DNA from: Bradyrhizobium sp. 200
GTDB lineage: Bacteria > Pseudomonadota > Alphaproteobacteria > Rhizobiales > Xanthobacteraceae
NCBI RefSeq assembly: GCF_023100945.1
Contig: NZ_CP064689.1
Span: 8,972,001 to 9,036,000, forward strand
Direction of reading: 5' to 3'
DNA: 64,000 nucleotides
In this document: one piece after another, positions 39,422 through 43,055 of the stretch
How positions within the stretch are numbered: position 1 is the first letter of the stretch
How the letters are laid out: each line of letters opens with the position of its first letter
The notes under the pieces: generated by a model
The model's database searches: none
Told to the model about the DNA's origin: nothing
Seen by the model: only the letters and a program-made list of their open reading frames with translations
Translations under genes and position numbers: made by a program

Positions 39422-40639
39422 TTATCGACGAGTTGCTGGTGGCGGCTTCTGCACCGTCGGTGCGGCGGCGGCCAAAATGTCCGCGCGTACACCGTTCCTC
39501 GGCGGATAGATCCGCTGCTGGTTGATCACTTGCTTGGTCACCTTGGCGGGGGCTCCGGATGTGTAGAGCTGGCGATCCCATCCGACGGTATGAAGTGCTC
39601 CCCAGGTTCCGAGATCGAGCACGGTTACATACCAATCGATGTGGAGTGGAAGCATCGGCTGTCCAAGCAAATCAGCCACAACGTTATTCCCGGCAAAGCG
39701 GCCCATCGGTCTTGCGAACTGGCAGGACATCACGGTGGAATGTTCACCGTCCACGACGCAGGAAGCCACATCGCCGGCGGCAAAGATGTTTGTCGCACCG
39801 GCAACGCGCATGAAATGATCCACATGGAGGCGGCCAAGCCGATCCCGCTCAACCGCCATCGTCTGGACCACGGGGCTTGCCCGCATGCCCGCGCACCACA
39901 CGACCGTCCGTGTCGGGATCATTTCACCGGAGCTCAGCGTGACGCTGCTTGCGTCGACAGAAGTGACCGTTACGTTGAGCCGCGTTTCCACACCCAGCGC
40001 CGCCAACGCTTCGCTGACGATCGGGCGTGCTTGTTCTCCGATCGTCTCGCCCACAACAGGGTTTGGATCGACGAGAATGACGCGCCGGCTGCCTGAGAGG
40101 CCCGCCTTTTCGAGCTTGCCTGGCATCTCCGTTGCGACTTCGATGCCCGTAAAGCCGGCGCCCACGATGACCACCGTGGCAAGGCCTTCCGAAACCGCTT
40201 GCTTGCCCAATGCGGCGAGGTGCGTGTCGAGCCGAACGGCCGCCGCGTAAGTATCCACGTCAAAGCCGTTGGACGTCAGCCCGGGTATTGCAGGGCGCAC
40301 CAATTGGCTGCCGAGCGCCAGCACCAGCCGATCGTATCCTATGACCTCGCTGCCGCCATTCGTTGTGACGCTCACATGTTGCTTGACGGGATCTATTCCC
40401 TGGACCTCGGCAACCCTGTGATCGACCCCAGCCGGGTCAAGCAGCTCGACGAGCGGTATGGCCGCATCGCTGATGTCGACCTCATAGTTGCGTACCCTGA
40501 TGTTGTGGTAGGCGTTGCGATCGACGACGAGTATTTCGACATACACTGCCGCTGCGCCGATTTCGTCGCGCTTGCGCGCAGCACCAAGGGCGGCCCAGAG
40601 CCCTGCGAATCCCGCACCAAGGACAACAATGCGCGCCAT
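39422..40639 (-). CDS. Type II NADH dehydrogenase-like FAD oxidoreductase
   Basis: This 405-residue flavoprotein has two dinucleotide-binding loops: VVLGAGFAGLWAALGAAR at the N-terminus for FAD and VVIVGAGFTGIEVATEM near residue 165 for NAD(P)H. TNIFAAGDVA near residue 300 is the second FAD contact, typical of NDH-2 and related disulfide-type oxidoreductases. It lacks the CxxxxC of thiol reductases. NDH-2 enzymes pass electrons from NADH to quinone without pumping protons. A membrane-anchoring tail is not evident, so a soluble ferredoxin- or quinone-type reductase is also possible. It is convergent with the LysR gene. Confidence 0.82.
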   Translation of the reverse strand: MARIVVLGAGFAGLWAALGAARKRDEIGAAAVYVEILVVDRNAYHNIRVRNYEVDISDAAIPLVELLDPAGVDHRVAEVQGIDPVKQHVSVTTNGGSEVIGYDRLVLALGSQLVRPAIPGLTSNGFDVDTYAAAVRLDTHLAALGKQAVSEGLATVVIVGAGFTGIEVATEMPGKLEKAGLSGSRRVILVDPNPVVGETIGEQARPIVSEALAALGVETRLNVTVTSVDASSVTLSSGEMIPTRTVVWCAGMRASPVVQTMAVERDRLGRLHVDHFMRVAGATNIFAAGDVASCVVDGEHSTVMSCQFARPMGRFAGNNVVADLLGQPMLPLHIDWYVTVLDLGTWGALHTVGWDRQLYTSGAPAKVTKQVINQQRIYPPRNGVRADILAAAAPTVQKPPPATRR

Positions 40640-40938
40640 ATGATTTTCCCGAACGCTCGGCTGGAGCTAATCTCGCGGGAGGAACGGAATCAAGCTTGTT
40701 GGGCCAGCCCCGTTGAGCCAGCCTTGGCGGACGCCAAGCGACCGCGCCAGCGCCCCGACAGTATTTCTGATTTTCCGAAATTAACTTGACGGCAAACCCA
40801 AATCAGCAATACATCGATTTCGTCCCGTCCCGATACGAGGGGCGTTTCGCGATCGTCACAAGCGCGGGGCGGGATGCGGTGGACGCGGATGTGCCTTTGA
40901 CGAATGGTGCGGATGCGTACGGTGAAGTCGTGTGGTCC

Positions 40939-41170
40939 TGACGCCCCGATGCTGGCGTCAAGTTCGTGAGAAGCAAGCTTCTCACGGGCGACGGTGACAA
41001 CGAGCCCGGCCCGCCGGGGAGAGCACGATATAAGCCGTAAAACCATTGCGCAGGGAATGTCGGATGCCTCCGCTGCCCTGTATGCTCGTGTGCGCCTCTA
41101 TCCACCTATTGCACACGAGACCGCGGGTGCAGCGTGCACCCGGCATTCCCTGCGCCCTCTCTTTGGAGGG
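40939..41170. ncRNA. Candidate structured RNA or complex repeat
   Basis: The segment holds six inverted pairs: TGACGCC/GGCGTCA (40939/40954), CGTGAGAAG/CTTCTCACG (40965/40978), a long-range 12-base pair GCGCAGGGAATG/CATTCCCTGCGC (41048/41144) enclosing CGTGTGC/GCACACG (41087/41111) and CGGGTGCA/TGCACCCG (41124/41135), and CCCTC/GAGGG (41155/41166). The two hairpins inside a closing stem form a branched fold. A weak frame on the minus strand (41105-40803) has no signal or motif and is probably a by-product. Strand, expression and function are unknown. Confidence 0.45.
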
Positions 41171-41227
41171 TTGAGGAAATTCGATAGCAAGCCTCGGGCG
41201 AATCGAGCCGCGAGATCGTGAAGGTGT

Positions 41228-41340
41228 GTCATCCCCCCGCTGTCGTCACCCGCGCAGGCGGGTGATCCAGTATTCCAGAGGCGCCAGCGATCAGATCGAT
41301 AGGCTGCGGCGTACTGGATACCCGCCTTCGCGGGTATGAC
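41228..41340. repeat. Dispersed palindromic repeat, family C (copy 2)
   Basis: Starts GTCATCCC and ends CCCGCCTTCGCGGGTATGAC. It has an inner CCAGTA / TACTGG pair and matches much of the copy at 16552-16672, including CCAGTATTCCAGAG. It follows the hairpin-rich segment and precedes the acyl-CoA ligase gene. Confidence 0.85.
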
Positions 41341-41507
41341 AGATGTGTCTGGGCGGGCACCAGAGAACAACTAACGCCGTGGAGGCCCAACCAGCTCCCA
41401 CCCCAGCCACTCCACGCAAGACAGCGTCCCTATATGCCCGCTCATCTGCCAGACAGAGTGCCATCGAGCAAAACAGGCGGCACGAGACCGCTGGACGTGG
41501 AGGAAGC

Positions 41508-43055
41508 ATGTCGTCGGTTCGCTATTACGACTGGATCGCGCATTTCGGCCGCCGCACGCCGGACAAGATCGCGGCCATCGATCTCGCGAGCGACCGCCGG
41601 CTGACCTACGCGCAGTTCGATGCGCGTATCTCGCGCCTCGCCACGCATCTGCGCGACAAACTCGGCGTCACGCGCGGCGACCGGGTCGCGGTGCTGGCGC
41701 TGAACACGACGGATACGCTGGAGGTGCAGTTCGCCTGTTTCCGGATCGGCGCGGTGTTCCTGCCGCTCAACACCCGCCTCACCGTTCCCGAGCTGCAATT
41801 CATCGTCAGCGATGCTTCGCCGAAGGTGATGATCCACGACACCGATCTCGCCGAGGTCGCGCTCACGGTCGCAAAGCTCTGCAACGTTTCATCCGCGCTG
41901 CTGCTCGGCGCTGATGGTTCCTACGAGGCGGCGATCGCGGCTTCGACGCCGCTCGATCATGCCGAGATGGTCACGCTCGATGACATCTCGACCATCATGT
42001 ATACCTCAGGCACGACGGGGCAGCCCAAGGGTGCGATCATCACCCATGGCATGACATTCTGGAACTGCGTCAACCTCGGCGGCCCCGCCTATGTCTCGCC
42101 GTCGACGGTATTGCTCACCGTGCTGCCGCTGTTTCACACCGGCGGGCTCAATTGCTACACCAACCCCGTGCTGCATGCCGGCGGCACCGTGTTGATCATG
42201 CGCACTTTCGATCCCGGCGCGGCGCTGCAACTGATCAGCGACCCATCCTACGGCATTACCCAGTTCTTCGGCGTGCCCGCGATCTACCAGTTCATGGCGC
42301 AGCATCCGTCGTTCGCGACGTCGGATTTCGGCCGCCTCGTGATCGGCGGCGTCGGCGGCGCGCCGATGCCGGTACCGCTGCTGAAAGTGTGGGAAGCGCG
42401 GGGCGTCGCCCTGCAGCAGGGCTATGGAATGACCGAGACGTCTCCGGCCGTGCTGGCACTCGACCGCGAGGATGCCGCGCGCAAGGTCGGCTCGTCCGGC
42501 AAGCCCGTGCTGCATACGGAAGTGCGGATCGTTCGCCCTGACGGAACCGACGCGGATGTCGGCGAACTCGGCGAGCTCTGGGTCAAGGGACCGAACGTCA
42601 CGCCCGGCTACTGGAACAGGCCGGACGCCAACCTGTCATCCTTCACCGACGGCTGGCTGCACACCGGCGATGCCACGCGCGTCGACGAAGAGGGCTTCTA
42701 CTACATCGTCGACCGCTGGAAGGACATGTACATTTCCGGCGGCGAGAACGTCTATCCGGCCGAGGTCGAGAGCGTGCTGCATCAGCTCACGGCAATCGCC
42801 GAGGCCGCCGTCATCGGCATTCCCAATGAGCAATGGGGCGAGGTCGGCATGGCGATCGTCGCGGTGAAGCCCGGACATACGCTGACACCAGCCGAAATTC
42901 ATGCGCATTGCGCGGCCAATCTGGCGCGGTTCAAATGCCCCAAGCTGATCGAGTTCGTCGATGCCCTGCCGCGCAATGCGACAGGGAAGATTCACAAGCC
43001 GACGCTGCGACAGAAATTCAACGCGCTGACGGCTACAGACAAGCTAGCGTCGTGA
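41508..43055 (+). CDS. AMP-dependent acyl-CoA ligase (long-chain type)
   Basis: The 515-residue enzyme activates a carboxylic acid to an acyl-CoA through acyl-AMP. It has the A3 loop IMYTSGTTGQPKGAI near residue 163, A5 YGMTETSPAV near residue 305, the hinge GWLHTGDATRVDEEGFYYIV near residue 382, the sugar-binding YISGGENVYPAEVE and the A10 Lys in NATGKIHK near residue 494. ATG 41508 follows GGAGGA four bases upstream. It is larger in family similarity to FadD/medium-chain ligases than to the ligase at 17970. The XRE gene lies convergently downstream. Substrate unknown. Confidence 0.9.
   Translation: MSSVRYYDWIAHFGRRTPDKIAAIDLASDRRLTYAQFDARISRLATHLRDKLGVTRGDRVAVLALNTTDTLEVQFACFRIGAVFLPLNTRLTVPELQFIVSDASPKVMIHDTDLAEVALTVAKLCNVSSALLLGADGSYEAAIAASTPLDHAEMVTLDDISTIMYTSGTTGQPKGAIITHGMTFWNCVNLGGPAYVSPSTVLLTVLPLFHTGGLNCYTNPVLHAGGTVLIMRTFDPGAALQLISDPSYGITQFFGVPAIYQFMAQHPSFATSDFGRLVIGGVGGAPMPVPLLKVWEARGVALQQGYGMTETSPAVLALDREDAARKVGSSGKPVLHTEVRIVRPDGTDADVGELGELWVKGPNVTPGYWNRPDANLSSFTDGWLHTGDATRVDEEGFYYIVDRWKDMYISGGENVYPAEVESVLHQLTAIAEAAVIGIPNEQWGEVGMAIVAVKPGHTLTPAEIHAHCAANLARFKCPKLIEFVDALPRNATGKIHKPTLRQKFNALTATDKLAS

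Follow-up and report, generated by a model that had tools for sequence, protein, structure and literature searches.

What kind of element fills the gene-free, hairpin-dense segment at positions 40939-41170 of the window, the 64,000-nucleotide stretch of the Bradyrhizobium sp. 200 genome analysed here? The initial annotation, made from the letters alone, had offered a structured RNA or a complex repeat, and both descriptions turned out to be apt. The segment covers the middle and the 3′ portion of a single copy (approximately 40786-41214, + strand) of a dispersed structured RNA family whose members often adjoin REP-like palindromes. The interval 40939-41170 is thus too narrow for the element, whose start, marked by a promoter-like site, lies some 150 nt upstream. 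In our judgement it is probable, rather than assured, that the window element is a copy of a new, large (~380-600 nt) family of stand-alone structured RNA genes that act in trans and have spread within genomes.

Extent and parts of the element

All parts of the RNA gene are assigned to the + strand. The promoter-like site (40786-40815) consists of a -35-like TTGACG (40786-40791), 18 nt of spacer and a -10-like TACATC (40810-40815), and it occupies the position of the RpoD-type promoter 5′ of the element in other genera. The 5′ domain (40822-40882) has a closing stem formed by GTCCCGTCCC (40822-40831) and GGGGCGGGA (40866-40874), with GAGGGGCG and GCGATCGTCAC within the stem and GCGGTGG after it. 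The middle domain (40930-40989) contains the conserved GTGTGGTCCTG and two hairpins, one at 40939-40960 with TGACGCC/GGCGTCA arms and one at 40962-40989, where 40965-40974 pairs with 40977-40986 (10 nt, exact). A block recognized from alignments, GGGGAGAGCACGA..AAGCCGT (41016-41038), lies 5′ of the 3′ core domain (41043-41159), which is defined by a covariance model match (E=1.7e-22, G000:C1:9013043-9013159) and by covariation. In the core, an outer stem (41048-41063/41140-41155) surrounds the hairpins 41085-41093/41111-41119 (9 nt, exact) and 41124-41131/41135-41142 (8 nt, exact). Within the outer stem, GCGCAGGGAATG (41048-41059) and CATTCCCTGCGC (41144-41155) form an exact inverted pair with an arm extendable to 20 nt at 90%. 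The inverted pairs named by the initial annotation, including this one closing two hairpins, are present. Beyond the core lie a CCCTC/GAGGG hairpin (41155-41170), assigned by sequence and fold and similar to the CCCTC blocks after the core in other copies, and a 3′ motif, CTCGGGCG..CGCGAG (41193-41214), found in 46 of 56 sequences. An ungapped test for a terminal hairpin at this motif in the 56 sequences did no better than shuffles (at least 7 of 8 pairs in 38/56, shuffled 0.68; all 8 pairs in 4/56, shuffled 0.11). A REP-like palindrome dimer, of the CGTC type by look and without an assigned strand (41231-41342), adjoins the 3′ end as a separate repeat outside the RNA gene.

The relatives in other genera display the following order of parts: a promoter-like TTGACA-N16-18-TATAnT in many; within about 10 bases, the 5′ stem, TCCCGCCCC..GGGGCGGGA, enclosing the same two internal motifs and followed by GCGGTGG; a middle block with GTGGTCC; variable segments; CACCGGGGAGAGC..AAGCCGT; the 3′ core; and, 3′ of it, the CCCTC hairpin, the 3′ motif and, in some, a boxA-like GCTGTTTGACAATTGAATC. 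Full-length extracts span 380-604 nt (56 sequences, with L241, L243 and L250 left out for want of an anchor), the element differing in length among loci because of the variable segments. Two loci (L039 and L040) represent a minor subfamily with another apical hairpin in the core, closing on the same outer stem.

Covariation and the RNA strand

The originally noted segment folds on the + strand at -123.6 kcal/mol, compared to a shuffled mean of -86.2 (z -7.67, with 0 of 200 shuffles as good), and on the - strand with a z of -4.78. For the element as a whole (40818-41216), the corresponding z values are -6.18 (0/100 shuffles) and -2.09 (4/100 shuffles).

We measured covariation in an alignment of 46 diverse cores (A2), comprising 18 rows from the own genome, same-genus genomes and named genomes, one more from the same-genus genome G122, and 27 from other genera, which were found through a model built on an earlier alignment (A1). 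Changes on both sides were seen at 16 of the 34 base pairs, in 119 cells, a level reached by 0 of 500 shuffles, which overstate the significance since the sequences are related; 96.6% of the cells pair. Slid controls gave 1-6 pairs with changes on both sides, and the count of further pair types, 41, was matched by 1 of 500 shuffles. The pair at columns 11/137 is GC in 25 rows and AU in 21, a split that may be one old change. Columns 12/136 hold CG 25, GC 20 and GU 1, and columns 17/131 hold CG 25, GC 9, UA 9, AU 2 and GU 1. Despite the caveat of kinship, three to five kinds of pair occur in several columns. In A1, the constancy of the inner hairpin says little, as 63 of the 65 rows were collected with a search pattern in which this hairpin is almost invariant. 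For the 5′ stem, the sequences' own arms formed all nine pairs in 39/55 cases (swapped arms 33%, shuffled 5%) and at least eight in 51/55 (swapped 77%, shuffled 43%); its covariation is modest, because swapped arms so often reach eight pairs, and the test left out L328 and used some best-scoring arms that lie off the expected place.

The core pairs contain 93 GU cells and 21 AC cells, and a single doubtful pair accounts for 17 of the AC cells. GU thus lies far above AC, which indicates that the + strand is the RNA strand. Taken together, the family possesses a covarying secondary structure, as a stand-alone non-coding RNA gene should, and the compensatory changes in the core, with the advantage of own over swapped arms in the 5′ stem, bear out the branched RNA fold first proposed from the inverted pairs of the window copy.

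Distribution and flanking signals

With R1, a covariance model built for the 3′ domain from 65 sequences, we found 40 core-bearing places on the proper strand of the own genome (E≤1.1e-11, best 150 of 5568 candidates scored) and one weak place (5.5e-4), together with 37 mirrored matches on the other strand that are due to the palindromes. A DNA search of the same genome returned 63 matches, which merge into about 40 places (best 40 of 58 candidates scored). L036 is a further place lacking the core, and the aligned set of 38 copies is the 40 minus L036 and L038. Two copies (L005 and L013, G000:C1:3709952 and 3711377) lie 1.4 kb apart in the same orientation. The approximately 40 copies of the RNA gene compare with one 16S match in the genome.

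A multicopy family in Bradyrhizobium, which the initial annotation had suggested, was confirmed beyond the 40 places here: in the order sample, every one of the 15 genomes of the genus, the own one among them, contains matches, at least nine in 14 cases and one in G122, and the close relative G031 has 42 on the proper strand. Within the family, 67 of the 198 genomes sampled gave matches, and these belong to 16 of the 47 genera represented, counting the own genus. Most of the listed genomes of other genera had 1 to 8 matches; genus g50 reached at least 18, and scoring additional candidates raised the number to 28 in G124. G090, G097, G104 and G164 each had a single detected match. Matches were also obtained in 22 of the 397 genomes of the order sample, including five that belong to two further families (G357 and G384; G506, G557 and G569), and in the class sample of 289 the own genome alone matched. 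As 5-18 candidates were scored per genome in these wide searches, absences are weak evidence, and the counts include mirrored other-strand matches in some genomes. Among named genomes searched with an exact pattern, 76 of the 80 matches listed are titled Bradyrhizobium, the other four being metagenome bins under other titles. Viral contigs gave one match, plasmids one match of 54 nt and phage records none. In three drafts (G084, G144 and G225), many copies lie close to contig ends, at a distance of no more than a few hundred bases; the repeat thus probably interrupts assembly, and copy numbers for these genomes are unreliable.

Promoter-like sites were scored as the best -35/-10 match at a fixed place 5′ of the element, with L254 left out as having too little upstream DNA. 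At least 9 of 12 consensus bases were present at 18 of 27 other-genus loci and 1 of 7 same-genus loci, hence at 19 of 34 loci outside the own genome (control windows 0/136), and at 1 of 21 copies in the own genome (controls 0/84); the window copy scores 8. Judged by sequence, the promoter of the family is clear in other genera, degenerate in the own genome and weak for the window copy. Some of the copies with degenerate promoters may consequently be silent. The copy in the closest relative has TTGACG-N18-TATATC, and PMC4842269 gives the RpoD motif of B. japonicum as TTG-N16-18-TATA. At L252 and L258, the promoter spacer contains a near-palindrome, TTCCTATAGGA, that could be an operator, and several other loci keep ATTCCTA at the spacer. 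Six loci (L239, L247, L250, L259, L262 and L263) have ATCCCCG or ATCCCTG, then CTTATnnT, in place of TTGACA-TATAAT, a second 5′ motif that is perhaps read by another sigma factor.

At the other end, a motif resembling the boxA of rRNA biology follows 15 of 149 copies in the sense orientation (controls 0/149, 0/126, 0/126, 0/139 and 0/139) and 8 of 39 in a more distant set (four controls, 0/39 each). The boxA-like 19-mer GCTGTTTGACAGTTGAATC, allowing up to 2 mismatches, occurs at three places in the own genome, all directly 3′ of copies, and its reversed control at none. The own rRNA leader carries GGCTGTTTGACAAGTGAA, and GCTGTTTGACA is common to this leader and the boxA-like motif. This suggests possible contact with Nus factors. 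Antitermination of the element's own RNA is unsupported, since a minority of the copies have the boxA-like site, and in these it lies 3′ of the fold. For the window copy, no boxA-like site was recognized beyond the REP-like dimer at 41231-41342, and no terminator was found for the element.

Competing readings and relation to known elements

Among possible functions, we favor that of a structural RNA working in trans. We infer the following about its transcription and ends, its action in trans, its protein partners, the role of boxA and the movement of copies. RNA polymerase with the housekeeping sigma factor would start just 5′ of the 5′ stem, and the RNA would fold into the 5′ closing stem, a variable middle and the strongly conserved branched 3′ domain. 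Its action would be in trans, the likeliest role being to scaffold an RNA-protein particle, and NusB-S10 factors may be recruited at the boxA-like site that some copies carry near their 3′ end. Copies would have spread in Bradyrhizobium, with recombination keeping them alike within a genome, as for rRNA genes. In 15 of 18 pairs joined by their 3′ flank (L013 and L036 left out) a paralogue within one genome is closer than the positional counterpart, some margins being small (0.750 versus 0.744 for the window copy). The copies are thus homogenized within genomes, which fits gene conversion or replacement.

Several observations count against the RNA-gene reading, namely the degenerate promoters in the own genome, the boxA-like site that is confined to a minority of copies and 3′ of the fold, the want of a terminator and the dispersal of the copies. 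They bring in the strongest competitor, which we regard as a serious although distinctly less probable explanation: a selfish SINE- or MITE-like repeat, once a useful RNA or a hairpin element, that spreads via REP recombination or borrowed enzymes and whose copies are mostly functionless. The approximately 40 copies, in both orientations to genes, and their weak promoters would be expected of such a repeat, as would the absence of copy L018 from relatives. Between the flanks of L018 there is no element match in the six relatives compared, and in three of them (G019, G001 and G020) the flanks stand ~65-110 nt apart with REP-like sequence between; the simplest reading is that L018 was gained in the own lineage. 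Remnants with the 3′ part alone are found at the window position in G033, G012 and G001, and at the L020 locus G019 keeps the 3′ end alone; at these places the 5′ side was lost. The REP junctions also favor a selfish repeat: REP-like motifs were present in the 250 nt adjoining the 3′ side of 30/38 copies and the 5′ side of 8/38, and in distant windows (600-850 nt away) at 2/38 and 1/38. The left-right contrast is biased, as the 15 motifs had been chosen by eye among 3′ flanks of copies.

Other features speak against a selfish repeat. No coding partner was seen. MITEs and SINE-like repeats are non-coding, dispersed and present in many copies, and the element resembles them in these respects. 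It differs in its promoter-like site and covarying fold; no clear terminal inverted repeats (by eye) and, at the one locus inspected (L018), no target duplication were seen, the site there being a REP-like region with ends that are not clean. Loci in low-copy genera retain the promoter-like site, the structure and sometimes the boxA-like motif, the core pairs show the bias of GU over AC, and 19 of 31 loci share at least 500 nt of 3′ flank between G031 and the own genome (31 of the 42 G031 matches compared). In SINE families, few masters are active; many Bradyrhizobium copies may likewise be silent, which is compatible with a true RNA gene family.

The 5′ flank is shared over the same length at 3/31 loci. 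As 5′ flanks differ between these two genomes far more often than 3′ flanks, we considered the element as an island integration site. The left gene of the window copy is 15 kb away in G031, and among 12 further left flanks four lie 2.8-8.4 kb, rather than roughly 1 kb, away from the element, one is at a near-normal distance, two are elsewhere (80-84% identity) and five were not convincingly found. Thirteen loci were followed in this way (5′ flanks L275-L304, L305), and at five of them G031 carries some 2-15 kb of additional DNA on the 5′ side of the element. Neither an integrase in the five proteins scanned nor direct repeats at the one junction examined were found, and the idea of an integration site was dropped.

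A related reading, which we consider unlikely, retains a stand-alone RNA and gives it a specific task: a multicopy, rRNA-like RNA that carries boxA and would tune rRNA synthesis or ribosome assembly in slow-growing bacteria by binding, in trans, NusB-S10 or another part of the ribosomal or transcription machinery. The element resembles rRNA operons in sharing GCTGTTTGACA with the own rRNA leader and in copies that are more alike within than between genomes. It differs in that its boxA-like site comes after, not before, the structured RNA, and no rRNA family matched over the element in the Rfam scans.

A role at the DNA level without an RNA, as a cruciform or as protein-binding palindromes like REP/BIME, is suggested by the perfect palindromes and the REP-like neighbors. 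It is rendered very improbable by the ratio of GU to AC (93 to 21), by the stronger folding of one strand and by the promoter-like site directly upstream in other genera. CGTC-type REPs of Bradyrhizobium, described in PMC3733652, and Br-REP1/Br-REP2 (PMC3733652, PMC5082802) are, like the element, dispersed palindromic intergenic repeats of this genus. REPs are 20-40 bp long. The element, at about 400 nt and with several domains, was rejected as a tagged CGTC/GTAG palindrome of that size; it is the neighboring 41231-41342 that looks like a REP dimer. The published Br-REP1/2 consensus pieces (up to 3 mismatches, both strands) occur in 0/56 full-length sequences, 0/38 flanked copies and nowhere in the window.

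Equally hard to sustain is a cis-acting leader for the next gene, either a riboswitch or a boxA antitermination leader. The boxA-like motif at the 3′ end and the more frequent conservation of the 3′ flank would suit it. We rejected it as the next downstream gene, called with a home-made gene finder, has no constant orientation (same strand 16, opposite 20 and 2 unresolved, of 38 copies). The neighbors are also unrelated in low-copy genomes, where 20 neighboring proteins scanned at eight loci have no Pfam family in common. Finally, a repeat that encodes short hypothetical proteins is hardly credible: mechanical ORFs of 75-118 amino acids do cross the element, contrary to the literal claim of the initial annotation that no protein frame fits, but the 38 aligned cores of the own genome (108-123 nt) differ in length by single bases, so no reading frame is kept, and the stems covary.

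Searches for a known counterpart, among them the Rfam check that the initial annotation had proposed, left the stand-alone RNA gene that we prefer without a described family. At the gathering threshold, Rfam 15 gave 0 matches in the whole 64,000-nt window; at E≤1 it gave nothing over the element in 40000-42200, and no family lay over the element at 26 related loci. Three weak hits were judged to be chance: a fluoride riboswitch hit (E=0.0037) that falls inside a reading frame, a CRISPR-DR28 hit at the REP-like dimer and MIR839 beside L324. In the literature searched (main texts, with few subscription papers) no description of the element was recognized, and an exact 17-mer of it was absent from the paper texts searched.

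OLE, GOLLD, ROOL and HEARO are large structured non-coding RNAs with no known function. The element is similar to them in being several hundred nucleotides long, with a complex conserved fold, and stand-alone. It differs in its lack of an Rfam match, in its roughly 40 homogenized copies in the own genome, in the RpoD-type promoter-like site of its relatives and in the boxA-like 3′ site of some copies. The sRNAs BjsR1-10 of B. japonicum are also intergenic RNAs of the same genus; in contrast to the element, they are reported to reach at most four imperfect copies, for BjsR5, 6, 7 and 10 (PMC5082802).

The family thus presents a covarying RNA of several hundred nucleotides, without an Rfam match, that has about 40 gene copies in the genome studied here and occurs in every same-genus genome of the order sample. 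It may also lie behind short mechanical ORFs and broken contigs in draft genomes of this group. If expressed, it would be a rare example of a large bacterial RNA, other than those of the ribosome, that is encoded many times over, and it would allow the multiplication and homogeneity of RNA genes to be studied.
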